Below are positions 1,556 through 62,400 of a stretch of 64,000 nucleotides of DNA, piece after piece. Within the stretch, counting starts at the first letter, position 1. Every line of letters begins with the position of its first letter. The position numbers and the translations under genes are program-made. Source of the DNA: Owenia fusiformis (Eukaryota > Annelida > Polychaeta > Sabellida > Oweniidae); contig CAIIXF020000008.1 of the NCBI GenBank assembly GCA_903813345.2, forward strand, positions 31,208,867-31,272,866, read 5' to 3'. Below the pieces are notes generated by a model. It ran no database searches. It was not told where the DNA came from and saw only the letters and a program-made list of their open reading frames with translations.

Positions 1556-4500
1556 ATGCCACGGGGCGGCTCCAAAACCGGTAAGAAGGACGAGCCTGAA
1601 TCACTTCGTAAGGCTAAACAAATATTAAAAAAGCACAATCAAACTAAACGCGAGGAGACAAGAATTCACCTAGGGAAATCTCATGAGAAATGGATGACAT
1701 TGAAAAGGAAACTGAACATCAGACAAAATGATGAACTGGCCCTGTTCCTTATAGCTTAGTGAGTAAAAATAAAATTATATTCAAGTATTGTAAATATGGG
1801 TCTGCAAAACAGTGTGTTTGTAGACCTCACCACACTTTTATACAACCTAGCCTTACTCATATCACTTCGAGAGCCATGTTATGACATGTCTCTCAAAGTG
1901 AGTAACCCTAGAAAAATCAAACACACTCCATAATCTCCTTTGATAAGCGGAGTCTAATTCATTCTAAAACGATCACTCGATGATGTTCTCAGATGTTTTC
2001 TTCAACCTAGATCGGTTGCATTTATTTTCTTTATGTCATAGATCTGGAAATGTACAACATTTCATATTCAGGGAATACCTTATTGTACCAGACTAATTTT
2101 CTTACTATAAATGCCTGGCACAACCGTCAACATGTTATTAAGTTTCGCAAGGATCCTGCCATGACCGTGGTATTGTTATTGTGATTGGTATAACCGTGAC
2201 AATGCTATATTATATTGCATGGCCTGTCATGACCGTGGCAATGTTGAAGCCTGATATGACCGTGGCTTTAACATTACCACGGTCATGACAGGCCTTACAA
2301 CCATTGCCAAAGTCATATAAGGCTTTAACATTACCACAGAAATGACAGGCCTTGCACTATAATATAGCATTGTCACGGTTATACCAGGCTTTCACAATAA
2401 CAATACCACGGTCATGGCAGGATCCTTGCGAAACTTAAAAACACTTAATAACATGGCGACAGTTGTGATAGGCATAGGTCTTGCAATATATAGCATGTGA
2501 CCCTAATAGGTAGCTATTATCATATTTAACTAAAAAGTCAGTCTGATGCATATCTATGAGTGTCTATATTTCTACATATACATACATCATACATTATATA
2601 CAATATATGTTCAATATAGTATATCCACTTCCTTTTTAGCTACACTGACAACTCAGTTGAGAAAAAAGGTGATGAAACATTGCCATATGGGTCACCTGAA
2701 ATGCCGTCAACCAGTGTCCATCAAATGCACTCAACACCTCACACCACAAGAGGAGGCCATGTGACTAAACCACCTTCTGTTTCCTCACTCAGTAGTAGTT
2801 CTAGGTATGTCATGTAAATAACAAACAAATTCAAAGGCTCAATATGCCAATGATTTCTGACTTTCAAATATTACAGCACTGCAGCAGGTCTCATTTATTT
2901 TTTTAATATTTTTTTATTACACTTGTTTTGTCAATCATTTTTAAAAAAAGTAAAAGGATAATAATGTGGTACAGTCATATAATTCATTCTAACCATATCT
3001 TTCATTGTTGTCATTGTGTGGTACTTTTGCTTTCATAGTATACAATTACATGTACATTATGTGATGTTTGAAACACAGTGACATTCTTTATGAGAAAATA
3101 CAACTTAGAATATGCTTCTATTATTTCAGTAATGGAGTACAATCCTCAATTTCCGGTTTGGAAGATATACCTGAAGAAATAACTACTAGGGCAAAAAGGA
3201 AGCGCAAGTTAATTCCTGATTTCAAATTGTATGATACCAAGAAACGAAGGTTAGTTATACATGTTTTTTTTAATATGCATCATATATTAAAAGATTACCA
3301 ATAAGTCTAAAAAATGTTGGCAAGGTCACATGTACAGTCAGAATTATTTTCCATTCAGAATCCATTATTTCCCCAATACTCTTTTTAAAGCTTTTGTAAA
3401 TATTTTACAGGGTGAATACATCATTTGATTTTGGATCCAGCACAGATACAGAGTCTGATGACCAAATTGGAGATCCAGATTTTGATCCAGATTTGGAAAT
3501 GAAAATAGTGCTAGAGTAAGTTATTTTAAATTCCATTGATTGGTCATCAGAACTTGAACATAGTTTATTTGTATGCAGTATGAATGGCAATTAGAATGGT
3601 TAAAAGCAGTCATAAGAAATCATAATATTTCAACATTTCTATCAGTTTAGATACACAGGATTCTTTCACATAAGGCTACATTTCTTGTCAACCAGCCAAG
3701 GTATCATTTTATAGATTTTTTGATTTTAGAGTACCTGGATTTGAGTGACTTTATATGACTGTTTAATTATATTTTCGAGGATGGTGCCTTTGGCAATTGT
3801 ACTGAACTTTTATTTTTTCAATGAAATGATTTCTCTAATTTTTTTCATTTTTATAAAAATGATGTAATGTTTGATGACTAAAATACAGATGAATAGATTT
3901 GTTTTTCAAATGCAATTATAGATTGATGACTTATTTGTGGCATAGAACATGTCATTCAATTAAACCAATTGCTTCAATCTTGCCACCATTATAAGAAAGG
4001 ATTACATATAAGCTTTTATTACTCAACTACTTTGCAGAGAATGTGATGCGGAAGATGTCGATGACATTGAAACGGTTACAGAAGAGGACATCCATCTTAA
4101 AATAGAAGATTCTGAAGATCAGGATCAACCACGCATAGAGAGAAAGGGTACAATACTCCACGAGGTAAACATAAAGAGGGGTGAAAAAGATCCTGACCTC
4201 CCCCAAGCTGCAATAATTCACGAGTCTAGCCTTTTCTTGCTGGTGAATTGGCTTACAACATCATCACCAGGAAGATGTGTCAGAAAGGGTTGCCAAGAGC
4301 AAGTGAAACCTGTTATTTCTTCGAGGGGGAGTGCATTCGTGATCACTTGGGTAAGGTTGCAATATATTAGTTGATAAAAAATCTTTTTTCAACCAATCAT
4401 ATACCAATCTGAATTTTTTTACAAAATATAGGGTCAAAATATTGTACTTGTATACGTAATATTGTACTTTATTCTTAGATATTCATATTTTTATAATTTT

Positions 4501-7500
4501 ATTTAACTTATTTTTATTGAAACATTTCAGTATTCTTATGATATCAGTTATTTGGTGATTTTTGTGTTTTGATGAAATTAAACGGGGGGGGGGGGGATGC
4601 CTATTGTATTGTTTATCAAGCCCTGATAAGCTTGTCTTTGAATTAGTATATATGATAGATTATGTTTTATTAACTTGTATATTTTAGACTTGTGCTAATA
4701 ATCACGAAAATCATAGATGGACTTCCCAGCCGAAAATGCCCAATGGTGTGTTACTAGGTGACCTCACATTAGCATCGGCATCTCTACTGTCAGGAAACAA
4801 CTTTACTAAAATTAAGATGTTGGCTACTAATATGAAGCTTAATTGTATTTCTCAACGCACATACAGCAAATACCAAGCAAACATCCTTCTACCTACTATA
4901 GACACCTACTACAAGAAGATTGAAAGGGAGCAAGTCGAAAAGATGAAAGGAAAAGCAGTTATACTTGGTGGTAAGTCTTCATTTTATATTTTCTTATAAC
5001 GATAAAGCCTTATATGCCCAAATGAGTCAGAAAAATCATATTACATGTGTTATACATGTCAAGTGTGAGTCTTTTCTGTAATCAAGAGTGAAATTGAAGA
5101 CATAACTAATATTTTAAGGGCGAAGGTTAGGAAATGACCAAGGTGAGATATGATTCTTATAATACATTATGAGGCTGGATATGTGATATTATCTATGGAA
5201 ACAGCTATGCCTATTTGTATTGCCAAAGTTGAGGCTTAAACAATTGAAAATTAAAAAGGTGAGGCTATGATTCATTTTATGATATCTTTGTTGAGGCTTG
5301 AGATTGGCTTTTAGCTATGGTAAGGTTATGCCTGTTTGTATTGCCAAAGGTGAGGCTGTAAGTATAAAGATGAAGAATGACAAAGGTGAGGCTATGGTTC
5401 TTTTCATAACCTGGTGAGGCTGGAAATGTGATATAACATAGGGAAAGATTAATTGTATTGCAAAAGGCGAGGCTATAAAGATTCATAATGACAAAGATGA
5501 GTCTATGATTCTTCTTATATGGTGAGACTTGAGATGGACTATTATCTATGGAAATTTTATGTCTGTTTGTATTGCCAAAGGTGAGGTTCTAAAAATGGGA
5601 AATGACTAGGGTTGGGCTTGTGAGGCGATGGTTATTTGTACTTTCATGGGTGAGCTTTTAAAAATGTGACCGTAACGAAGGTGATCTATATTATTTGTAT
5701 TATCATTATTGACCCTTTAATGTTTTTGTGACAGCGATTCATGTCCGGCATTTGACATTCAGCATCTTTAATAAATGGCAAATTGTGACATTTTTCATGC
5801 TTATGCCTTGTTATTTAAATGGAAATGGTTATTTATATATTTGAAAACCAGGAAAGTGAAATATGAGTAAATTCATTCCAGGGTTACTATAGATCTGTCA
5901 TATTAGGAAGGTGAATGCATAAGTCAGAGTAAATTATGATTTTTATTATATTTATATTTATTTTATGAAGGTGATGGAAGAATGGATTCCCCAGGATTTT
6001 CGGCAAATTACTGCACCTATACAATGTTTGATCTGGAAACGTCTGAACTTGGGTCCATGAGAATAATTGATAAAAGAGATGTCGGACTAAAGTCGCCCAA
6101 CATGGAGAAGGAAGGTTTCGAGAGGTGCATGAAGCATATGGTAGACAGTGAAGTAAAAGTTGCAGAAACTGTAACTGATGGCCATACAGGCATAGCAAAA
6201 ATAATGAGTGAGTATTTTTTAAATCACAATACAAATAACACACTCGGATGAGAAAATAGTTTAAAAGCATTTGTTAAAAACATGATGGATAAGTTTCTAT
6301 AAGTAGACCTTCAAAATCAATGTCACAAATGTATAAAAGGATAAATTATTGGTGTGAACTGTGACCATAGTCACCATAGTAGTTCAACACAGCAATCAGG
6401 TTATTGCGTATTTATTATTCAAAGAATATATTTATCAGAAGTTTGCATGTGACTGCTCTACAAAAAACATTGTCTTAATGTCTCACATTTTCAATAAATT
6501 TGTTTAATATATTAGTTTCCCAAACCATACTGATTGAAATGCAACAATTTATTTCCCAGGAGAACAGTACCCTGAAGTATTCCACAGCTTGGACATGTGG
6601 CATGGAGCCAAGGCCATAGGGAAAAAAGTGGTAAAGGTATGTTTCGTTTATTATAGACTCTTGAAAAAGGTGGGTGAATGGGGGTTGGTGAAATATTGAA
6701 TCATATTAAAATAATTATTTTTAGATTGTTATCTGGGGTGCTTTATTTTTAAATGAACCGTAATCTAAGTAATATTTACATAATTACAAAATGAGTGTGT
6801 GTCTTATTATACAAACATATTTGAAAAATTTGTTACTGATGTGACACATTTATTTAGGCATCTTCAAGTGCTGCATGCAAAGAACTGCTCCCTTGGGTCA
6901 AGAGCGTTGTCAATCAGTTTTGGAGAGCTGGAGATAACTGTGATAGAGATCTGAATAAATTCATTGTAAGTTTCTTCATGTTCTTGAACACAGATATTAT
7001 ATCAGCATTTTAGGAAAAAATAAGCCCCTTGTACTTACTTCTTACTAATGTTTGTGTACAAAGGGAATGACAAAAGAGAAATAAGATTATCAAATTCAAT
7101 TTCAACAGAAATAAAAACACTTATATATAAAGTTAAATTTTATTGAAATGATTTACTTCTACCCCATTTCTTTTTATCACAGGTTATATGGAAATCCATC
7201 CTGCATCATGTGGCTAATTCTCACGATTGGATATTCTATGAGTGCCCCCATCCTCCTATGGAAAACCCAACTAACGAGAAGGCAAAGTGGTTAAATGCAG
7301 GAAGCCCAGCACATAAGAAACTTCGAGAGATTGTCCTAGATCGTTACCTACTTGGAAAACTGAAACACTACACAAGATGCAGGTAATAAATATTAAACAT
7401 TTTTGTTTTGCTATGTCATCACTTTAAGTGATGACATATTCTAATGGTCATATTTTTTTGTGACAATGATTGGCATTTGTATTGATTTTGGTGTCTGGTA

Positions 7501-9384
7501 GTTGGCTTCTGTAACAAATACTGTTCAGATTGAATTAAATTATTTCAAAATCATCTACGATTTCTCACACGTTCAAATCTAATTTCTGAAATTTTACATT
7601 CAATGACCTATTTCACATTTTTGCAAATATATTTTTTATTTTCAGGTCAAATTCCATCAATGAGACATTTAACAGTTTGATACTAATGTATGCTGCAAAA
7701 CGATATTCATATGAGTAAGTAAATAGCAATATTTTTAACATAACTTGCTAATGTATGTATCCATCCATGCATGCATCCATCCATGTATGTATCCATCCAT
7801 GTATGCATCCATTCATGCATGCATCCATCCATGTATGCATCCATGCATGCATGCATCCATCCATGTATGCATCCATCCATGCATGTATCCATCCATGCAT
7901 GCATCCATCCATCCATGCATGCATCCATCCATGCATGCATCCATCCATGCATGCATCCATCCATGTATGCATCCATCCATGCATGCATCCATCCATTTAT
8001 GCATCCATCCATTTATGCATCCATCCATGTATGTATCCATCCATGCATGCATCCATCCATGTATGTATCCATCCATATATGCATCCATCCATGCATGCAT
8101 CCATCCATGCATGCATCCATCCATGTATGTATCCATCCATGCATGCATCCATCCATATATGCATCCATCCATGCATGCATCCATCCATTTATGCATCCAT
8201 CCATGTATGTATCCATCCATGTATGCATCCATTCATGCATGCATCCATCCATGTATGCATCCATCCATGCATGCATCCATCCATGTATGCATCCATCCAT
8301 GCATGCATCCATCCATTTATGCATCCATCCATTTATGCATCCATCCATGTATGTATCCATCCATGCATGCATCCATCCATGTATGTATCCATCCATATAT
8401 GCATCCATCCATGCATGCATCCATCCATGCATGCATCCATCCATGTATGTATCCATCCATGCATGCATCCATCCATGCATGTATCCATCCATGCATGCAT
8501 CCATCCATCCATGCATGCATCCATCCATGTATGCATCCATCGATGCATGTATCCATCCATGCATGTATCCATCCATCCATGCATGCATCCATCCATGTAT
8601 GCATCCATCCATGCATGCATCCATCCATGTATGCATCCATCCATGCATGTATCCATCCATGCATGCATACATCCATCCATGTACGCATCCATCCATGCAT
8701 TCATCCATCCATCTTTCTGTTTTTGAAATAATAATTTACCCTACTTTTTACAGTCCACCTGCATACAAAGGTAGATGTCAGCTGGCTGCCATTGACTACA
8801 TCAAACACACTGGGAGAGCTCCTCTTCGCACTAAAGAGGGCAATATCAGGTAGCTATTTATCAAGATAATGTTTATTTGTACCTTATTGGAATGGGACCT
8901 CAACACTTTTTCCTGACTTTTCCTTTTCACACAACTTTGAAAGTAATATGTAAGCAAATCATATGAAGTCACTATTTCAACTATGGCAAAAATTTGAGTA
9001 TTCCAGTCAAATAAAGGGCAGACTGAGAGATGCAGCTTCACCATATCACATAAAACTTGAATGATGGTGTAATTAAATTAAACTTTATATATATTTTCCA
9101 GGTACCAGCGGTACTTCTCTAAAGGCACTAGTGAGTGGGTTGTGTGCGAAGTGAAAGAGCCAAAGCAATACTCTTACATACCTGAGATATTAGCAGATAT
9201 AGTTCGAAAGTATTGTTCGGGTGATGTGAAGACTACTCAAAAACCAAGACTTTCAGAACAGGATCCCAGAAGAATTTCAAAGACACTGGCTCCAAAACCT
9301 CCACCAGCAACAGAGGAGTTGGTGGCGATTAAGAAATCCAGGTCAAAACAAATAGAAAAGGCCAGGGAGCAATACCACAAATAA
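1556..9384 (+). CDS. DDE transposase-like protein, 13 exons, 752 aa, intact
   Basis: Exons: 1556-1758, 2640-2804, 3130-3249, 3411-3515, 4038-4350, 4688-4970, 5971-6207, 6560-6636, 6858-6965, 7183-7382, 7646-7714, 8754-8849, 9102-9384. All junctions are GT..AG and phases match, giving 2259 nt with one stop at the end. Order: a basic N-terminal segment with [11 protein letters not shown] (about 44-54); an NLS-like RAKRKRK and an acidic stretch (about 130-230); a Cys/His cluster with RCVRKGC and CANNH spanning exons 5-6; then an RNase H-type core: D398 in [11 protein letters not shown]466 in TDGH, D487-x2-H490 in DMWH, E610 in SINETFNS. Asp, Asp, [C/D]-x2-H and Glu form the known pattern of several cut-and-paste transposase superfamilies (hAT, MULE, P, Kolobok). 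The closest relatives I recall are uncharacterised multi-exon proteins of fish, molluscs and cnidarians. I infer a nuclear DNA-binding protein, either a host-domesticated transposase or part of a large element. Superfamily not assigned. Confidence 0.82.
2111..2475. repeat. Fold-back element in intron 1 of the transposase-like gene
   Basis: The left arm starts ATGCCTGGCACAACCGTC and the right arm is its near reverse complement, ending GACAGTTGTGATAGGCAT. Long inner arms match nearly perfectly (AAGTTTCGCAAGGATCCTGCC-type sequence on both sides). The motif TGACCGTGG or its complement CCACGGTCA recurs several times, so the arms were themselves built from short repeats. No target duplication is clear. 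Confidence 0.75.
5106..5700. repeat. Degenerate tandem repeat, ~120 bp unit, about 4-5 copies
   Basis: The block TTTGTATTGCCAAAGGTGAG recurs at about 5214, 5334, 5452 and 5567, with GTGAGGCTATG-type words between. It lies in intron 6 of the transposase-like gene and has no coding character. Confidence 0.65.
5700..5815. repeat. Degenerate copy of the R2 (GTGACAT..TGCCTTGT) family
   Basis: It contains GTGACAG..., a CGGCATTTGACATTCAGCA block, then GTGACATTTTTCATGC and TTATGCCTTGTTAT. These words are shared in the same order with the R2 copies at 26.4, 34.0, 43.7 and 52.2 kb. It lies in intron 6 of the transposase-like gene. Confidence 0.45.
5971..7714 (+). CDS. Catalytic-core exons 7-11 of the transposase-like gene
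   Basis: Exon 7 (5971-6207) carries both presumed metal-binding Asp: D398 in a DGRMDSPG context and D466 in VTDGH. Exon 8 (6560-6636) carries DMWHGAK, the D-x2-H motif. Exons 9 and 10 supply the region between it and the third acid. Exon 11 (7646-7714) carries SINETFNS, whose Glu is my candidate third acid. D402 is an alternative first Asp. Spacing is 68 residues from D398 to D466 and 144 from D466 to E610. No stop or frameshift interrupts the core, so catalytic residues may be intact; activity is not shown by sequence. Confidence 0.72.
7753..8714. repeat. Tetranucleotide array (ATCC/ATGC), ~960 bp
   Basis: It is built from ATCC and ATGC/ATGT tetramers, mostly as the 16-mer ATCCATCCATGCATGC with variants. 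It sits in intron 11 of the transposase-like gene, 39 bp after the exon 11 donor and 39 bp before exon 12. No stop codons arise, so long false ORFs appear on both strands. Replication slippage is the expected origin. Confidence 0.95.
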
Positions 9385-9678
9385 ACTGACTCTTTAATGA
9401 TTGTGAATTTAATTACCACAAATGACAGTAAACATATTCAAGCAACATAACACTTGTACAGTGAGTATTGTATACAATGGGACATTGATTCACTGGTGGG
9501 GCATTGGAATATAGATAACACTAATATATAAGAACAGAAGTGTTCAGAATAAGTTTCAGAATTTTATTACATTAAACTGATGATAGAGAATTGCAACAAA
9601 GTAAGAAACAGTAAACACATTTATTTTTAATAGGCTAAACATTGCAATGATTATAAGTTTGAATTGTATAATAATTTA

Positions 9679-9960
9679 CCGTATTCTCTCTTATGAGTGC
9701 ACACTAGTAATTTCCAAAAATATTTAAAAAGGCTAACATATTAACTCATTCCAATATGCCAAAAAAAAGAAATTGCGTTAACCAAGTTCATACTCTAGCC
9801 TACAGCTCATGTATTTCTTTCTCTGAATTTAATATAATCATCAGTCAGTATAATTTTTGTAAACAAATGCATTGAAATTTCTGTTTTATTGAGACCATAT
9901 TCAACATAAAAGAGACATATGGGCTCCTTGAAACTTAGGGGCTCATTAGAGAGAATACGG
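9679..9960. mobile_element. MITE with CCGTATTCTCTC terminal inverted repeats, TA target
   Basis: The left end is CCGTATTCTCTCTTATGAG and the right end is its reverse complement with a single mismatch in the first 19 bases. TA flanks both sides (9677-9678 and 9961-9962). It is 282 bp with no ORF. The TA target points to the Tc1/mariner/pogo group. It lies downstream of the transposase-like gene. Confidence 0.8.
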
Positions 9961-12774: not shown

Positions 12775-14128
12775 TTAAAACATTGTTCCTTGTTTATATC
12801 CAGTATAATGACCATCAGGTGCTGGAAATTTGTCTCTAATTCGTAGAGTGCAGCAACTAGGTACCACTTTCCTGTCTTTTTTCCCTAATCTCCCATGACG
12901 CCATAATACAAAGCACCTGTAGCCGGCATGCCGCCTACTCTTATTGATGTCCATCTGAGACGTTGCATGTAGCCCAAAGATATCCCCCCTATACAACATA
13001 TTCATGTGCAGGGCCATCTCATCTAAACAAAAAGCTTCCATTTCCTGAAATAGTAATAAATAAGAATTTAGTCAAAGTTATATCATTTTTTTAAATCTAA
13101 ATGAAATGTTTCATATTGGAATAGGATTTCAAATATTGTTTACTATACACAGAATACACTTTGAATGATTAATTTTTTCTTGAAATGTGACTTGTAGGTA
13201 GGTACGATCTTTTCCCCATAGACCCCATGTTATAAAATCACAAAAAAGTGTAATATATCTTCTTGAATTGGATAGCAAAAATCCTATTTTACAGTACATA
13301 TTTTATTTCTATAACCAGGAAACCACACAGAAAAGAAACTATTTTGATAATATAAAGCAGCCATTTTGAAAATAAGATAAATATCAGCATCTAAAATTGG
13401 AACAAAATCAGAACACTGGTATTTGAGTGATATGAAAAATGCTGATCATTTTAAATTCAGATGCAATCTGGAAATTTACTTATGGAGGATACCTCCTGTT
13501 TTCATAGGCATTGGCATATAAGATTTTAATCAAATCCATCCTCTGGTATTTGAGTTAGATAGACTATCTATGTTGTACAAAAAATGACTGACATTTTGAA
13601 AACAAGTGGCCATCTTAAAAATCTCTTCTTAAGCAAACCTCACTACTTAGGCATCAACAAATAAAATTTGCACAAAATCCATTAGTAGTATAAGAATAAT
13701 GGTGGCCATTTTGAATTGAGTTGCCATCTTATCAATAAAACAGATGACTATTCTATATTCAATATTATCTGACCCAAATTAGGCATATTGTGGTGAAACT
13801 GGTATCTACCTACTGGATAAATGGTTATTAGGAAATATTGACCATTATGCATTTTTCTAACGGATATAAATAAAATCAAACTACTGGTATTTCACTGATC
13901 TCATATTTAGATGATTTTGAACATGTGCATAGGTTTTCTAAATAATAAAGGCATTACATCATTTATTATCATCATTGAGGACACTTACTGGCATTATGCT
14001 AAGACATTCCTCTGGTATCATATGACAACACTCGTCATCAGGTTCGAGGTTGTCCCAATCACCTTCCGCTGCATGGGGTGGAGGACTCATCCACCGACAA
14101 TTGGTGCATTTACACCACCATGGAAATT
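12775..14128 (-). CDS. P2RX7_C-like domain exons (4 and 5)
   Basis: Exon 4 (14128-13989) encodes the WCKC..C cluster and the CC pair. Exon 5 (13044-12775) encodes the conserved C-terminal half and the stop. All cysteines I would expect for the P2X7-like metal cluster are present: C145, C147, C150, C173, C174 and the later SCC. The exon 4/5 junction is phase 0, so exon 5 could move as a unit. The domain ends the protein, as it does in P2X7. Confidence 0.82.
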
Positions 14129-15677
14129 CTGTCAAAAAAATGATATGGTTCATGATAAAAGGTTTGTGGCAGTGGAAAAATGAAAGTAAATCACGAATTT
14201 TGAAAATTGGAATATTGCTTCACATAAATATATATAATGTATAATTATGAGGGAAATATCTAGATTAGATACATGATCAGCTCAGGAATAACAATAATTT
14301 TTGAGGTCATTATAATATATTATTATTATAGCTCAAAATTCATGTGGTTGATTCATTGTTTGGTTTTTTAAAAAACAAATATACATACAGCAAGGACAAA
14401 TATGCAGGGCACATAAGCAAGACACAGGCAGGAATGTAAGAACAATTTACTTACCATTTGGTTCTGGTTGAGGCCCATGAGGGGGTTCGCTTTCACCACC
14501 ACCATCACGTGTCTTGTAAGATGCTTCGACAACACTATGGAAGACCCCTGGATGTTGCAGCGCAACCTGCTGCAACAGGTTTCTTACCTCACTCTCCTCG
14601 AGTAGTGTTATCGCCTCCTACAATTACAATATTTAAATTAACACAAAAATGCCAGGAGATAGGGTGCAAAGTTGTATGTTGCAAGAAAAATGTGTCATTC
14701 CTATTTCGTATCACTCTATTGGCCAAATGGTTGCCAAAGTAAATCAATTCAATGACATTTTCTTTCTAATCCAATGAGAGCATCAGCAATATATTATGTA
14801 AGAAAACAGAGGAAGACATGAACACCATAAAAACTGACTGTAAGGTATCCGCACAATGTACAAGTGTCAACACCCTCTTGACAGAGACTCTAAACTCCTT
14901 GTTGCCATGAATAAGCAATACTAACATGTAATCTGGAAACTGAGAAGCAAATTACCTGTACACGTTCTATTCTCTTGTCTCTCATTAGGGTCCATCTGTT
15001 TGCGGAATCTGCACTCATGGACACGGCAGGTTTTTTGGGTTTTGGATGGCCATCTTTGGGGGTAACTTCCCTTTTTCTTGTAGACTTAGGTTTTATAGGC
15101 TTCGTGGCTTTCCTTGGTCTTCCTTTCCCTCTTTTTCTTGCAGTCTCTACCACATCAGGTTCACTGGAATCACGCTGGAAGTGAAAATCGAATTCATTTT
15201 GAATGAATGTGATAATAGGTACAAATATTGCTCCAAGCCTCTTGTTCACATATGTAACAACTTCCCCTAACTGCTAAGCCCAGCATACAAAAATTTATCT
15301 GGACAAATGAATATTCATGGGGGACACCATAGACATAAAACACGTCACAATGCATTATAAATCGTATGTATGATGTACCTTTGGTCACAGTGACCAGTCG
15401 ATAAGCTCTAAATAGTCAGATTGTATCCTAATTTAGCCCCGGGGATTTGTAAACAAAGACCGAAAGAATAAAAATTGAGAAAATATTTTAAATTTTATTT
15501 TCAACATCTATTTTTATCTTTTAGGGCTATTATATATTAAATTTAGAAGGCCCAGGTGATACACCATTATATTCTTACTATGTAAAACGCAATATTTAAT
15601 CGTACAATATTAAGACAACGTCAATTTAGCAACAAACTTACTTCGCTACTGGTAAAGTCTGGAGATTTTTCCGCCAT
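12775..15677 (-). CDS. AT-hook protein with P2X7-type C-terminal (ballast) domain, 275 aa
   Basis: Exons in transcript order: 15677-15642, 15174-14956, 14617-14455, 14128-13989, 13044-12775. Junctions are GT..AG, phases match, and 828 nt include the stop. It starts MAEKSPDFTSSE. An AT-hook, KRGKGRPRKA, lies at about 25-34 in a Lys/Arg/Pro-rich segment. A helical-looking segment with LLQQVALQHPGVF follows in exon 3. Next come WWCKCTNCRWM (143-153) and a CC pair (173-174), then the exon 5 block with YRCFVLWRHGRLG, VPSCCTLRIRD and FPAPDGHYTGYK. This Cys order and the Y..F..WR..G / PSCC..RIR..FP...G.Y.G pattern match the cytosolic C-terminal domain of vertebrate P2X7 receptors, which binds zinc. 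There are no membrane segments, so it is not a channel. I infer a nuclear or chromatin-bound protein with a zinc-binding C-terminal fold; its function is unknown. Confidence 0.87.
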
Positions 15678-15741: not shown

Positions 15742-17373
15742 GAAATTGGAGAAGAAGCTAATATTTCATTCTGTTGATATCGTTGCTCAGTTGAGTGTAT
15801 ATAGCTTTCAGGTCAGTTAAACTTTTATAAATGTACACCATTGTCACAGAGAAGTAGGTTTTTAGGGTTCGAAATAACTTCTCAAGTGTTCGGTATTACT
15901 TTAACTCAGGTAAATCTTACTTTTACCCTTACAAAAAATCAAATATATTGTTATTAATAATCTAACTTCTTACATGGTTTTTGACGGCATTTAAGTGTTT
16001 AGATTACTGAGATTTATGATTCTATTGTTCATATTTTATAGCCATATAAGTAAGAGTTTATCAGGTTTATTGGATTGATAAATATTTAGATCTTATTTTG
16101 GAAGGTCTCTGGTAAGAGTATGAATATAAGTCAAAGTTATATACATGTATACATATACATGTATAAGTATACACAATAAGATGATAATGTATCTGTAATG
16201 TAGGTGGAGTTATTTGAGAATAAGTGATGATCATAAACAACATATCAATATATCAAAACCATAAGTTGGCACAAGCCACGATGTACTATTTCTTTTTTAA
16301 ATAAATATTGCATTACTTTGATAACAAAATGAATGTTAGTATAACTATCAAAGAAGTAATGCACAAATTGGAAAGAGGATTTTTATTTATTTATGTGTCA
16401 CAACATATGTAGAGACATTAAGTGATCAATTAATAATTATAGGAACATCTGAACATGTGTATGAAATGTAGTTGTCCCTTACAGAAAATACATGTAGAAT
16501 AAAATTTACATTATGTACTTTTTATTGTTTTTCAAAAAGTGTTATCACATCAAGAAAACACCTCTCAATCCAATCATTTTTTAATAAAAGTTGAATTGAT
16601 CATCTGGAGTTATATCACAAATACATGTACATGTATATAGAATATTTGGTGAGAAATAGTTCAATATATTGCAAGGTGTATTTGTGGTACCATGAGACCT
16701 GTTATACATTAATAGATTTTAAAGAGTTTAATAGCATCCCTCGGGCATTTGATAACTGTTTAGTTTTTTTATAACCAGATATACAGTATATACAATCATT
16801 GTATACAATGTCAAGGCTTTCAACAGATGGGGGGGGGGGTTATAGTAAAAGTATCGTGAAATATCTGGGAAATTATGCAAAAAAGTACCCTGCATGTCGC
16901 TGAGTTTCTTTATAAACTACCCTCTGCCTAGTATAGACTATATTACAGTTTAGTAGCCCCATCCCTACGTCTTGGGCAGCCCAGGTCATAAATCAGCCTA
17001 CCATGCTCATGCTGATCATTTCTTAACCAATCAGTGAGCTGGAAGGAATACATGCTAAATGCGTGCTCATTGATGTCAGAGGAAATTACCATATATACGT
17101 AGAAAGTTCAGGGAAGTCGAACGAATGCAAAGGGTAGCAAAAAAGGATATTTTTCAGTCTCAGAGTAACATCTTTATAAAATAAAACATATTTTAATAGA
17201 TAAAATTGTCACGAAATATTCCAAAAGTTAAATTTCAATTATTAAAATAAATCAACATTTAAGTTTGAACCACCTGAGGTTTTCCCTACACTGTGTGTGT
17301 CAATTTTGAGTATGTTGTCAATTTGTCAAATTTCTTGAAAAGGTGACAAAAACCAATAAAAATGTTCAAAGTT

Positions 17374-50000: not shown

Positions 50001-53000
50001 TTAGATCAGAATTTATTAGTTTTCTTTCCATTGTTTGTTTACTTCTGGTTTGCTGTTGAATAAATATTTCTTGTAAACATTGACGAAAGCACATCATAAT
50101 AGTTGTTAGTTCAAAATGCAACCTGGACAATAGCAAATGTTTATGATTATAACTATTACATACGATGCAGATCATGATTTACCCACTAGTTTCCAAGTTT
50201 ATAACTGCCTGTCGTCCTGCCGATAATATGTGAAACTTTTAAAAGATGATAGTTTATACGTCAAATGCCGTGCAAAATATTGCACATCACTTGACGGACA
50301 TGACGGCAATTGCCGCTATTATCTATTGACATGCGCACTTATGCTTTATAATTTCATGTCAATTGTCGTGCAACATGGCAATTGCCGTACTTCACGTTAA
50401 ATGGGGTTATCGTCTCCACTGTCAAATATTCAATTATAAATAAATTTTATTCAAGTATTCACCTTAAAGGGCTAGTGAGTCTTGAAATATAAGTTATTCT
50501 TATATATTGAACATATTTTGAAAAATATTTAGGTTGTAAAACCGAATAAATAATCCAAAATTATTTCATTTTAGGGTCTTGAAGCCGAAATGCAAGCAAG
50601 GCAACCAAAATCTGAGGCACTCTGTGTGATTGGTCAAGAACTGATACAAAATGAACACTATGCAAAACGTGATATAGGATCGCGGATTCGTAGCCTTCAA
50701 GACAATTGGCTTAAGCTACAACAACTTGCAGCTGCACGACGAACCCGACTTGAAGATGCGGCTGAATCGCAACAAGTAAGAATTAAAGGAATTATAAGGG
50801 ATAGAAAGTGTACATTGTCAGAAGATGACATAAGTCACATGTTCAAATTCAATTTCTCTAAAAATGTACAGGTTTCCCTAATAACTGGCTATAATACTGA
50901 CTACGGAAATAATTAAACAGTTTACATATGCCATCTATTTTGTGAATACCTGCGCATCTTTCACAACTTCAGTTTTACTTGCGAAATATGCACAGGTATT
51001 CATTCACCTTAACAGAATGAACTATTTGTTGTAATATTAAACCCAATGTATTCAAATAGATGGCATATGTGAAGTAATTAATTTTTGTGATCAGTCGAGT
51101 CAGTTATGTAATGAGGGAAAGCCGTAACACAATGTTTAGAGAACTTAAAAGTGCACATGTACTGTAGAATCATGGCCATCTAGGGATTAGTTATCCCCTT
51201 CCTATTATTTACGTGCCCTGTCATGTTCAAAGGCAGAAGGGAAATTGTTGTAATTAGGTCCCTGGACAGTCCCTAGAAAACCAATTTAGAGGGGGAAAGT
51301 TAAATCCCTGGGTGTCTTAAGATTACCTGTTTATGTACAAGTTATTTAAAATGACATACATGTACAATATATTGATGTATACAGTTATAGTAAATATATT
51401 GCCATCCAATCAATTTACATTTACACGATTTTGAACAAAATGCTCAATTGGCCGGGCACCTGCCGATGAATCGGAGCAAATGTGAACCAGCCATTACTTG
51501 ATACTTCTAAAGATATATTTGAATTGTTTTACTACGATCATTTAGATTGTTTTACTCCTATAAGTTACTTAAATTGTTTTTCTACTTACTATAACTTAAA
51601 TTGTTTTACTCCTAGAATTTAACATTTTTATTACTATAACTAACATCGCTTTACTACTATTTTAGTACTATACAGATGCCAATGAAGCCGAGTCATGGAT
51701 GCGTGAGAAAATGCCTTTGGTCTGTAGCGACGACTATGGCAAAGACGAAGCAAGTGCTAAGGTATGTCGAGATAGCCTGTTTTAAAATTGTAAAAATTAA
51801 ACAGCAAGAATGACAATGACAATGGCATGAAGTCAATACTACGTTGTGTAAAAATTCAAGAAAATTTGGCAGTTAAGTATATTCAAATTTTTGAGAGAAA
51901 AGATGAGAAATAAGCGTGACCATTTGATTTTTATCAATATCTTATATCTCAAATCGGAAAAAAATGCCTGTCTCAATGAAACTCAATCTGACAAAACATA
52001 AAAGCTTCAAAATAATTTGAATACTATCACGAAGTCTTTAATTTTTCTATAATGTCATGCATGCATTTGGTTATTGAAGATAATTTTTTTGTAAATGTAA
52101 CTAATGATGATAATTTATAAATAAATTTAAAAAAAAACAAAAAAAACTAAGTCTTTAATAAAATGATTGAATTACTTATAAGGATGACCTTAAAGCAAGG
52201 TTATTGTTTTTGTGTCACAACCAAAAAGTGGTGACATATTGTTATGGTTTTATGACAGCGGTTGGTGTCTGTTACAAATGGTGGTGACATTTTGCATATT
52301 AATGCCTTGTAATTCATTATTTTATATTTGTCTTTCAGTCATTAGCCATGCGGCATAACCGACTAGATGAGGAGATCAACGCATACGAAGATGACATCAA
52401 CAGACTCAATGAACTCTCTACAATGATGACTAAGGCAGGAACAATGGTGAGAAACTCTTAACATCATTATTAAAAAATCAGAAATCAGAAGTCAGAAATC
52501 GAATAATTTTTGAGTATTTTTTTGTAAAGATGGCAAATTAATATCATTATGAATTGTAATTGTTTATAAGTTGCAAGTGAAATTGAAATTGAAATTGAAA
52601 TTGAAAAACTACGACTTTTGTCCAATTTTCATGAAATTCAATTTTGTTGTATAAGATACGTACACTTAAGTACACTTAAGATTATTACGTGGGCTACACT
52701 GATAACACATCTGAAAATTGATTGGTTCCGTTAAGTTGATTATCATGGACTTTGGTCAATTGTATTGTGATTTCCAATACGTCATATTCTTAAATAAGCT
52801 ATAGCTTTTATAACAATATTAAGAGAATAGGTGGATAAAGGTAAAACTCTACGTCATCTCTCCAAAAATAAAACCCCCATGAAGTTAATTTTAATAGCTA
52901 TCTGATACTTAAGCTCATAGTAATTATTCCCCAGTTTAGCCATTGGTCATTCTTCATGAGTTGATTAATATGTGATTAATATGACAACAGACACGCCTTT

Positions 53001-57987: not shown

Positions 57988-59451
57988 TCATTGAGCAATA
58001 GGCAACCCAAGTTCAGAATTTTTCTTTTCATTGTTCGTTGAAAAAGCAGTTTTCTGATGGACGCCGTTGTAGTGGTGACTTTGGGTGGAGCGATTTTTTG
58101 TAAGTACTTCCGGTGTGAAAGGACCACACGGGGTATCATAAAGTTGGACTTGTAACACTTTGATGTTACATTTTCCTGCATTGTCAATTGTTTTTACGTC
58201 AGGTTTTGTTGGCTTTTCATCCTTGACTTCTACAGTGATGTCACTTGCAGATGTTTTTCTGTCTGATGTGATGTCGAGTAATTCCACATTTGTATGATTT
58301 TTCTTTGCTTGAATAACAGGGGTTGTCAACATATTTTGAGCCGATACTTCTTTCACATTTAGTTTTGTCAAAGAATTTAGTTTGTCTCTTGTCCTTGAGT
58401 TAAAGGTGTCGCCATTAGTAGGGCTGGTAGAACTGTCCCGGAAAATGATTGTATTACAAGAAATCTTAGCACACTGCCTGCGGAAAGACCTTTTGAAATC
58501 TTTCCTGAAAATCCCATAGACTAACGGATTAATTGCACTCGCAACATATTGAAACCATGACGCAAAAAGATTAGCATAGGCAGGCACCATGTTTGTATTT
58601 TCAAGAACAACCTTGAGGAGTTTAGTGACACAAAATGGTGTCATACATATGAAGAAAAAGGCCACGACGATGAGGAGACTTGTGATTGTCTTTTTTGTGT
58701 GCTTGCTTTTAGATTGCTCCTTTCTCGTCTTTTTCTGTGTTGAGCCATTCAGTTCAGTTATGTCACCAATGCTTGGGGCTGCTGGCATGCTCTTATCCAT
58801 TCGTTTCACCTCCTTAATGATCTTTAAGTAGCAATAGATCATGATGATCCCTGGGAGTAGAAAACAAATGATGAATGCGGCGATGACGTAGATTACGGCT
58901 GCTTGATAGTTCCAGTCGATGGCGCAGATGACCTCCCAATAATCATACTGTATCCAGTCCATAATAATCGGCACCGAACCAAATATAAGTCCTAAAATCC
59001 ACCCGTACATCACCATACCGACTACCCTTTGTTTTGTTATCATCGTCACATATTTCATTGGATGGATAATAGCCATATATCGATCAATGCTGACAAAAGC
59101 AAGTGTTGACATTGAAGCGATTATGAACACATAGTTCAATCCACAGTTTAAAAGGCACCATATTTTTGGCATTTCGTCAGCATCTGTGACCAGTTGCACG
59201 AATGTGGTCATCATGATAAGACTTGCTGTACACAAATCAACAATACTTAGATTTAGGATGAAAATGTTTGATATCTGCTCCCGAAGTCGTGAGTTTGTTT
59301 TGATCGCCATGATCACTGCAACGTTTCCAATGACGGAAAACACAATGATGAAAAAGAGGATGATTCCTGAGATGATAATAGCGATGTTGTCACGGCGTTG
59401 AATAATTACTGTTGCATTGTGGGATGTATCGTTCCATTTAACGTCATCCAT
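57988..59451 (-). CDS. Class A (rhodopsin-family) GPCR, orphan, 487 aa, nested in a spectrin intron
   Basis: The coding part is one exon. N-terminal NDTS and NAT are glycosylation sites. Landmarks: N43 in TM1 (GNVAV), D72 in TM2 (NLSIVDL), C99 at the top of TM3 with a Cys in the second extracellular loop (VICAIDW), D123-R124-Y125, Trp in TM4, Pro in TM5, CMTP in TM6 and NPLVY in TM7. The tail is about 150 residues, Ser/Thr-rich. TM3 has Asn at the place of the amine-binding Asp (3.32) and TM7 has Tyr, not Lys, at 7.43, so neither an amine receptor nor an opsin is supported. TM6 lacks the usual CWxP Trp. Some patterns recall GPR161-type receptors, but this is weak. CAG after a pyrimidine tract directly precedes the ATG, so an untranslated exon upstream is likely. 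AATAAA lies about 70 bp past the stop (57918-57913, minus). Confidence 0.95.
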   Translation of the reverse strand: MDDVKWNDTSHNATVIIQRRDNIAIIISGIILFFIIVFSVIGNVAVIMAIKTNSRLREQISNIFILNLSIVDLCTASLIMMTTFVQLVTDADEMPKIWCLLNCGLNYVFIIASMSTLAFVSIDRYMAIIHPMKYVTMITKQRVVGMVMYGWILGLIFGSVPIIMDWIQYDYWEVICAIDWNYQAAVIYVIAAFIICFLLPGIIMIYCYLKIIKEVKRMDKSMPAAPSIGDITELNGSTQKKTRKEQSKSKHTKKTITSLLIVVAFFFICMTPFCVTKLLKVVLENTNMVPAYANLFASWFQYVASAINPLVYGIFRKDFKRSFRRQCAKISCNTIIFRDSSTSPTNGDTFNSRTRDKLNSLTKLNVKEVSAQNMLTTPVIQAKKNHTNVELLDITSDRKTSASDITVEVKDEKPTKPDVKTIDNAGKCNIKVLQVQLYDTPCGPFTPEVLTKNRSTQSHHYNGVHQKTAFSTNNEKKNSELGLPIAQ

Positions 59452-59465
59452 CTGAAAAACACAAA
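59452..59465 (-). promoter_or_regulatory. Putative 3' splice acceptor abutting the GPCR start codon
   Basis: The minus strand reads TTTTTGTGTTTTTCAG and then ATG. The pyrimidine-rich run and CAG form a good acceptor; the upstream exon was not identified. Confidence 0.55.
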
Positions 59466-62400
59466 AATGATGAATTAAAAATGAAACAAAATAGCTTGTG
59501 ATGCAGCATTTGTGTATTAAAGAATATAAACCAATTTTAACTTAAAAGAATGATTATTAGTGTTTTCACCTTAAATCTATTTACCATAATTACACCTTAG
59601 ACCTTCTTGCTGGTTAGCTCTGGATTCTACCAGTCCATATGATCCATTGTAAAAAAAAAATATTGTTTCATTTCTTTTTTTTCTTTTTATTTATTTTAGT
59701 ATTAAAGAAAACTGAGTGACAAGTAGAAATGCTGAATTGAATTGAAAAATAATTATTGTTCATTTTGATATTCAAAAATATTTGTACTTAGACACAATTG
59801 TTAAATTGGTTGAACATTTTTGGATGAAAGCTGAAAGCTGAAGTCATCTAGGGCCATAACTGGGTCCTAAGGCAAAATGGACATTAGCTGGATTTGCTAT
59901 TGTACACAATCGGTCTTTTTAAAATATTGTTATTAACAAGTTTGATACAATACACAAACAATTGAAAACGTTGAAGAATTATAAAAGTTTCAGATAAACT
60001 TAAACTAAACAAAAACAAAAACTAAACAAAAACAAGTGCAGCTGAATTTATTTAGTTTTTTAAATAACATTGACTGCTTCATTTAGGATGCATTTATTGT
60101 CTTTATGCAGATTAAACTCATAAAAATTAACAAGACTTAAAAACAATGAATTACGGTATTACCTTTTTTCAACGTTGCCTAAGTAAATAAACTTGCATCA
60201 GTTTTTTTTGAAAATGATCACATAAAGTTCATCTATCCCTTTTGCGACAAAACTTCATCAAACTTTTTCTCATTTTCTTGCCTTATTGTACAATGAAAGA
60301 AAATCTAGTTTATCCTTGCTGGTTCAAATCCTCCCCCTCTTTCAAAACTTGACTGCTAGGGTGCTTTACCTAATGCTTATTTGCAACGATTTTATATTGT
60401 ATTTAATTAGAACTGCATATTATCTTTGTTATATATATAAGTATAAGATATGTAGTCACTCTGCGGCTTATGATAACTTGAAATTGGCTTCACGCATGTT
60501 TATATAGCAGCATGAATGCCCTCTATAGTATATGTATGAGTGTTTGTTAACACGTTTCTTATTGTTAATAGGAGTTGTATTGAGAATATATTAATTAGGG
60601 AGCATCTCAAAAGTTCAATGTAGGATTATTAACTATTTGCACAGTTAATCTATGACCCCTCCCTCCCCATCATAACTGTATTTGAGAAATGTTGATATTT
60701 TTTGGTTTCGAAAATCACAGTATATCTTACACTACATGCATTTATATATTTGTATATGGCCTCATTCGATCCAGACCAGACCCTATTGACAAAACTTTCA
60801 TATTTGCCACTTGGATTGGCATAGACAGGCTTCAGAACGCTCATTTTTAGTTTAATAACGCAGATGCGAGTAGGTAGTTACCAGTTTCACCACCAGGTGG
60901 CTCGTTCGGGTCAGATAGCTTGGCGGGTATAGTAAAAAGTTCCCTTTAACTTAAATTACATCTGTTTTAGTGGTTCAATTTTCATATAACCCTTATGTAT
61001 CTAATAGTTATGCAAATCAAAATATGTCCAGTAAATGAAAATGTTATCTGACCAGTACAAGAAGAGATATTTTACTTTTTGTGATTTTGTAGCATGGGCT
61101 CTATGGAGAATCAACCTGAACTAGAAGTCACACTTTCAAAAATAATTAAATTTTCAAACTTGATAAACAATTTTCGGAACCATATTTCTAGATACTTTTA
61201 CATGTAGATTTCAAATATAACATCGCTTTGACTAAATTTTGAATATTTAATGGCGTAAATCAAGATTTTTCCTATTCGCATCTAGTCTATTTACTTTGTT
61301 GTGTTAATGTTTTTTTATTATTTTTTTATTTATCGTACCAGAAGTGCACTGGACAAAAAGTGCATGTACTAATGAAATTCCAGGGAACGATGTTGGAAGG
61401 GTAACTTTTACGCTAATGACCCCCTCTCTCCCTAACCTTGCAAATACCATTAATTTCCTGATATTGATCTTTCGAAATGCTCCCTTATTGTGATGTGTTA
61501 AATTTGACACTCATGTAATACTCCCATTTCATCCATATTCCCTTGGCAGTATCTGGGATAGACACTGCGGCGGGTAAATGAAAAATCATAATCAGACTAA
61601 ATTAGACCATTTTTAGTACTACTGTGTTTGTAAATTGCTCAGTTCTATAGTTCACCACATGTGGGTTCATCTGCCCAATACAACCAATTAAGTTCTTGAG
61701 ATCTTTCATTGGTAGTTGGAACTTACACGGTGCCCATGTCAATCTGCGCGCCTACTAGGCACACAGTTTGAGACTCTGACAAACTGCGCTCATATTTCAA
61801 AATGAAAGACGGGGAGGACACGACTCCCGAAAAAAGCCAGAATATCGTCATTTAGCATTTATTCAGCCATGATATATTTGTTCCACCCCTGCTTTTTGAT
61901 TTTTCTTGCATGAATATGTTGTATTTTGACACACAGTTAACCCCTTTAAATGAATAAGTGATTCCTTCGGGCGTTTTAAAGATATCCATTATGGGTGACC
62001 AAAATTAGCTGAAAGCAATTAATCACATGAGTTTTCCCTATGGGAAAATAACATGGGAAATATTGTTTTCCACTTTATCTAAAAGGAATCACTTATTCCT
62101 TTAAAGGGGTTAACTGTATGTCAAAACACAACATATTGATGCAAGAAAAATTTAGAAAGCAGGGGTGGAAGGGTTTTTTCAGAAAAATTACGTGGGTGGG
62201 TTGTTTGCATCTTCCCTGTCTCAAAGTCGAAATTATTTTATCATCTCTTGGAGTGCTTTTCCTGAAGGTAATGCATTGGTCTAACATATGCACCTGTTTA
62301 AATCCTCAGAAAATAGCTAAAATACAAAATATGACTGTCCGAAATCTGTTGCGATACTTTCCCTCCTCCTTTGCCTCACTGACCTTTTATTGTTTCTCAA

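Follow-up and report, generated by a model that had tools for sequence, protein, structure and literature searches.

A KolX-like ballast gene convergent with a Kolobok-type transposase in Owenia fusiformis

What would a stand-alone relative of the P2X7 receptor tail, preceded by an AT-hook-like motif, be doing in an annelid genome? The question is raised by a minus-strand gene at positions 12775-15677 of the 64,000-nucleotide stretch of Owenia fusiformis DNA analyzed here (the window, to which all positions given without a contig refer). The initial annotation described five exons with an intact frame, a P2X7-type ballast domain with all the cluster cysteines and no channel part, and an AT-hook, and took this combination as a sign either of an ancestral nuclear role of the fold or of a mobile-element product. 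The descriptive part of this account is correct because the exons, the matches to P2RX7_C and P2X7, and the complete cysteine clusters are all found. The spliced model of the gene, called here KolX-like for reasons given below, consists of exon 1 (15642-15677, MAEKSPDFTSSE), exon 2 (14956-15174), with the AT-hook-like sequence RGKGRPRK and a Lys/Pro-rich stretch, exon 3 (14455-14617), with the N-terminal part of the Pfam match, exon 4 (13989-14128), with the clusters WCKCTNC and CCHMIPEEC, and exon 5 (12775-13044), with RHAGYRC, VPSCC, RIRDKFP and the stop codon. The open reading frame of 828 nt encodes 275 amino acids plus the stop, and all four introns are GT-AG. The model is backed by a paralogue on C4, where the comparison covered exons 2-5 and splice sites lie at equivalent places for three of the four introns, and also by a decayed duplicate on C8.

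In the Pfam search of the 275-aa translation, residues 80-270 match the P2RX7_C family (PF20478) with E=7.1e-27 and 95 bits, well above the cut-off of 23.5. Among the PDB sequences (phmmer, E<=1), all four distinct matches are P2X7 (2.7e-16 to 5e-15), with the similarity spanning residues 135-270. The motifs WCKCTNC, CCHMIPEEC and VPSCC align with the three zinc-cysteine clusters of P2X7 that define the ballast domain (PMC7016195, available text), and all eight cluster cysteines are kept. Exon 5, the longest, was folded alone, with the mean pLDDT of 70.6 and pTM of 0.63, and in the Foldseek search with this model, the best 11 of the 39 matches are all P2X7, at probability 1.00 and E values of 8.3e-3 to 4.1e-2, none at or below 0.001. 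The likeness to the P2X7 ballast (PDB 9e3q, 8tr5 and others) is one of sequence and, for exon 5, possibly also of predicted fold. Alignment by eye indicates that the equivalents of the GDP contacts R546, H547 and R578 of P2X7 are kept, whereas R574 and K583 are replaced by T and A. As judged from these comparisons, the KolX-like gene is real and resembles the P2X7 receptor tail.

Unlike P2X7, the window protein has no channel domain. The six P2X_receptor matches listed all lie at C8:33.75-33.77 Mb (33.749-33.768), ~2.5 Mb from the KolX-like gene, and among the ballast matches listed, none falls at C8:33.749-33.768 Mb; within the reach of these searches, the P2X channel and the ballast are thus encoded separately in this genome. 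Ballast proteins that exist apart from the channel have been described before, from sponges to fish, with the ballast always C-terminal and the N-terminus variable (Rump et al. 2020, PMC7016195), and the window protein resembles these NANOR and other stand-alone ZCD proteins in having a C-terminal ballast, a variable N-terminus and no channel. The available text of that account mentions neither transposons nor AT-hooks; its Figure 6 text refers to two markers, given without names, whose linkage with ballast genes extends over different animals, and it might be guessed that Kolobok transposases are among these. A connection to transposons was drawn by Kojima and Bao (2022; PMC9587614). In the available part of the paper, they attribute the ballast fold to KolX, a protein of Kolobok transposons of the Kol0 lineage, derive P2X7 from a P2X4-like gene that fused with KolX, and regard nanor as a probable domesticated KolX.

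The window encodes a putative Kolobok-type DDE transposase on the plus strand, at 1556-9384, so that the two genes are convergent. The ORFs of this region already resemble those of a transposase. When the 651-aa transposase ORF of L023, a different ballast locus, was compared with the window by tblastn, a linked set of matches was obtained, including 5970-6221, 6870-6974 and 7180-7362 (E=2.4e-18), and a separate match at 9097-9255 (E=1.2e-4); a short, stop-containing part of the linked set, at 9667-9723, was taken as chance. The GT-AG splice model comprises 12 exons encoding 717 aa with no stop in the frame: 1556-1758, 2640-2804 (exon 2, for which no counterpart was found in the C4 copy), 3130-3249, 4038-4350, 4688-4970, 5971-6207, 6560-6636, 6858-6965, 7183-7382, 7646-7714, 8754-8849 and 9102-9384 (exon 12, with the stop codon), with exons 6, 8, 9 and 12 additionally covered by tblastn. 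The best-scoring splice sites were used throughout except for exon 6, for which the second-best acceptor was chosen because it matches the C4 junction, whereas the best-scoring one would drop the GDGR motif.

Two candidate catalytic aspartates, in GDGRMDSPG and TDGH, are found in exon 6, the DxxH motif (DMWH) in exon 7 and a candidate catalytic glutamate in exon 10. Both D motifs, the DxxH and the E motif align among the window gene, the C4 copy, L023 and L024, with the L024 fragment ending before the E, and from this conservation, the D and E residues are predicted to be the catalytic ones. The DxxH motif is defined for Kolobok in the available text of PMC9587614, where a zinc finger between the second D and the E is also described. 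No Pfam family was found in the 717-aa protein. One of the transposase introns contains a tandem array of a 16-bp unit at 7751-8712 (~59 copies, ATGCATGCATCCATCC) that creates long spurious ORFs.

On the right of the two genes, a TTAA at 15901-15904 is a possible, unproven element end, and the similarity to a decayed copy at C8:11.7 Mb stops at 15908. As terminal inverted repeats, the pair 1234/15901 was considered, and its left side was rejected because a dispersed repeat starts there: the segment 1234-1439, beginning at a TTAA, is 95-96% identical in at least 13 places. The TTAA-anchored pairs around the window genes score at most 7, compared with 5-9 in 20 control regions, and another scan of the locus for terminal repeats revealed nothing better. 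Another repeat is located at about 2264-2499; farther along the window, there is an open frame with a spectrin repeat (50575-50916, E=3.7e-12) and one of a rhodopsin-type GPCR (57988-59541, 7tm_1, E=7.4e-51).

The window pair has a sister on C4, where the ballast exons occupy 3.9036-3.9076 Mb and the other strand carries the transposase at 3.910-3.916 Mb. All nine introns modelled in the C4 transposase share the alignment column and phase with introns of the window gene, in which two additional introns are present. In the C4 model, exons 7 and 8 form a single exon because the frame continues through, and one acceptor is a tie. Across 651 codons, the two transposases share 63% identity; synonymous divergence between them is saturated (pS 0.823), and nonsynonymous divergence is lower (pN 0.243). 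The respective values for KolX exons 3-5 are 0.915 and 0.215 (171 codons), exons 1 and 2 having been excluded because the C4 tail does not align. The decayed duplicate at C8:11.735-11.738 Mb (L015) has 87-91% identity with the window gene over exons 2-4 and contains stops in exon 4; with L013 and L014, it forms a 30-kb cluster (C8:11.711-11.741 Mb) of decayed KolX genes, both C4-type and window-type, and one transposase exon. Among the matches listed, there is no near-identical further copy of the window pair. Thus, the pair appears to be low-copy and subject to purifying selection, although the same signs would be produced by selection within a mobile lineage, which conservation between two paralogues alone cannot distinguish from selection in the host. 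The low copy number suggests retention by the criterion applied to Kolobok transposase genes of Xenopus, which are low-copy and kept by selection, with synteny shown across species (Hikosaka and Konishi 2018, PMC6004289). Some of those genes also have an intact DDE, like the candidate residues of the window gene; KolX is not mentioned in the available text.

The same genome contains much younger relatives. Four copies of one family (L005-L008) all encompass an intronless ORF of 234 aa; the one that was scanned, from L005, matches P2RX7_C with E=1.3e-15, and all four places match in the genome search. The main blocks of these copies are 99.1-99.8% identical, and on the right, all four end at one and the same base, beyond which the flanks differ. 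Two copies were followed as far as both termini; their lengths with the TTAA are 9,739 and 10,533 bases, and they start with TTAAAGATGT and finish with ACATCTTTAA; they accordingly combine a TTAA target with 5'-RR termini, in agreement with the TTAA target and RR/YY termini given for Kolobok, and with the TTAA ends and 5'-AG start of Kol0, in the available text of PMC9587614. A transposase-like ORF lies on the strand opposite the ballast ORF, and in Pfam, its fragment gave sub-threshold matches only (best, MULE, 6.2e-4). By its ends and identity, this family is a recently mobile Kolobok element.

The pairing of ballast with transposase extends beyond these families. With two transposase queries, 14 of 19 transposase loci were found within 20 kb of a ballast match, compared with 0.085 expected under uniform placement. 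For this count, 14 of the 18 matches of one query were used (the other four being second exons of the same loci) and all 11 of the other, along with all 44 P2RX7_C genome matches and 12 further ballast places including C3:14089075 (E=0.00124). The count favors pairs because both queries were taken from the neighborhood of ballast genes; with the five query-source loci removed, the figure is 9 of 14. Furthermore, the 14 loci are not independent events: one is the window, four are copies of the mobile family that served as query sources, and the C4 sister and two equally scoring loci, on C2 and C483, are also among them. With a third, broader query, a ballast match is near only 16 of 41 transposase loci, and a transposase is near 16 of 42 ballast loci; this count used 18/18, 9/11 (E<=0.01) and 49/49 matches of the three queries, respectively, all 44 P2RX7_C matches and 51 of 76 further places (E<=0.001); the locus at C3:14.08 Mb is near in the first count and far in the second because the ballast E cut-offs differ. 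Among the additions from the third query are many ORFs with an identity of 20-25%, possibly from other lineages of transposases, and the ballast loci without a detectable transposase may be decayed, may be host genes, or may have transposases too distant for the queries. Two other candidate companions were considered. The ORF at L003:2516-3163, located near one ballast match, which we take to be transposase-like, has no Pfam match and 30 matching places in the genome, many of them in open frames of 550-1000 aa, and like the YqaJ match of L011 (just below its cut-off), it was rejected as a general companion, there being, by eye, no consistent closeness to ballast matches.

The AT-hook consensus consists of a GRP core with basic flanks, and the window protein does contain the AT-hook-like GKGRPRK that the initial annotation spotted by eye, without profile support. 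The Pfam AT_hook model has no match in the 275-aa protein; genome-wide, this 13-position model is silent, and the search with it is uninformative because the controls are silent too. The exon containing the motif has no match in PDB at E<=10. A basic-GRP-basic core appears in 0.5-0.8% of shuffles of the exon, a pattern picked after the sequence had been seen, and bare GRP in 5%. To assess how widespread the core is, the ballast strand was scanned for [KR].?GRP[KR] in open stretches of at least 25 aa, across 22 stretches with ballast sequence, one of which (L001) comes from the window and leaves out exon 2. The 21 others, or 17 when L002, L005, L008 and L009 are merged with the longer stretches that contain them, include many short ones in which the N-terminal exon may be missing; the core occurs in a single one, the decayed duplicate L015. 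In the C4 sister, the place of the AT-hook-like tail is taken by an RG-rich one. Because the core is found elsewhere only in this duplicate and the C4 tail is RG-rich, the motif does not look ancestral and is rejected as an ancestral mark of the fold, and the suggestion that it reflects an ancestral nuclear role is not supported. A basic tail of some kind may be general in the sub-lineage of the window and C4 genes. In the open-licence literature searched, we found no work joining an AT-hook to Kolobok, and none relevant by title on AT-hooks with P2X7, whereas one paper turned up for KolX together with Kolobok and one for the P2X7 ballast domain together with transposons.

What, then, is the gene? 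Most probably, it is the KolX of an old, low-copy Kol0-type Kolobok locus, convergent with the transposase, kept by selection and possibly domesticated or nearly so. Like Kol0, as described in the available text of PMC9587614, the window combines a ballast protein with cysteine clusters and a DDE transposase bearing DxxH, and KolX beside a transposase, in convergent orientation, is what is found both in the window and on C4; unlike Kol0, the window copy is low-copy, carries the AT-hook-like tail and has no terminal repeats that could be found. Its two genes are split into five and twelve exons. The pair seems to be kept in place rather than part of an active element because it is low-copy, old and intact, and terminal repeats were not found. 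The other suggestion of the initial annotation, a mobile-element product, stands, given the convergence with a Kolobok-type transposase and the inclusion of a recently mobile element of the same genome in the family. It is rather unlikely that the pair is instead an autonomous Kolobok that still moves, or was silenced recently, with one or two intact copies, conserved by selection within its own lineage. The intact candidate DDE and DxxH residues, the end of the similarity to the decayed copy beside TTAA 15901, the decayed or fragmentary relatives at C8:11.71-11.74 Mb, C3:16.13 Mb, C149 and C6:16.63 Mb, and the recent movement of L005-L008, another family of this genome, would all be in line with such mobility, but neither a near-identical copy, among the matches listed, nor terminal repeats at the pair were found, and the C4 pair, the one other sister that seems intact, differs from it to saturation at synonymous sites.

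It is far less probable that the gene belongs to the host, with a long-standing role in the nucleus and no tie to transposons, next to which the transposase is a chance neighbor. Such a history could be suspected from the AT-hook-like tail and from the stand-alone ballast genes reported across animals (PMC7016195, available text), but the C4 sister and the mobile family share the two-gene layout, in the count with two queries, most transposase loci lie near ballast matches even when the query sources are left out (9/14, or 14/19 with them, compared with 0.085 expected for the 19), and the family is named KolX in print (PMC9587614, available text). Least credible of all is a broken P2X7-type receptor or an artefact of joined chance frames: the domain is, indeed, best known from P2X7, but the P2RX7_C match at 7.1e-27, the C4 copy, which conserves both the frames and the splice sites, and the distance of ~2.5 Mb to the P2X channel exons all speak against it.

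If the gene is, as preferred here, a retained KolX, the transposase and KolX would work together in the nucleus, a plausible site of action because transposases act on DNA: the transposase would act on DNA ends, KolX could serve as a zinc-folded partner or a DNA tether, and the basic, AT-hook-like tail of the window KolX may add a contact with AT-rich DNA. A more specific scenario, which we put forward tentatively, is that the transposase-KolX module was co-domesticated at two old loci, with the candidate catalytic residues intact, and that one KolX gained an AT-hook targeting AT-rich chromatin.

Stand-alone invertebrate ballast proteins (PMC7016195) and their transposon origin (PMC9587614) are already known from the available texts of these papers, and the general claim is not new because the link between KolX and ballast has been published (PMC9587614). 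What is added, on the strength of the gene models, is one more member, an intact, low-copy, multi-exon transposase-KolX pair with an unusual tail. The tail of a medically important receptor is thereby tied once more to the transposon accessory protein published as its source, and mobile, decayed and long-kept forms of KolX coexist in the genome concerned. With a young KolX-bearing element as well as old, retained pairs, this is a good genome for asking what KolX does in transposition, and if the co-domestication scenario is true, P2X7 and nanor would be only two among several independent host uses of KolX.
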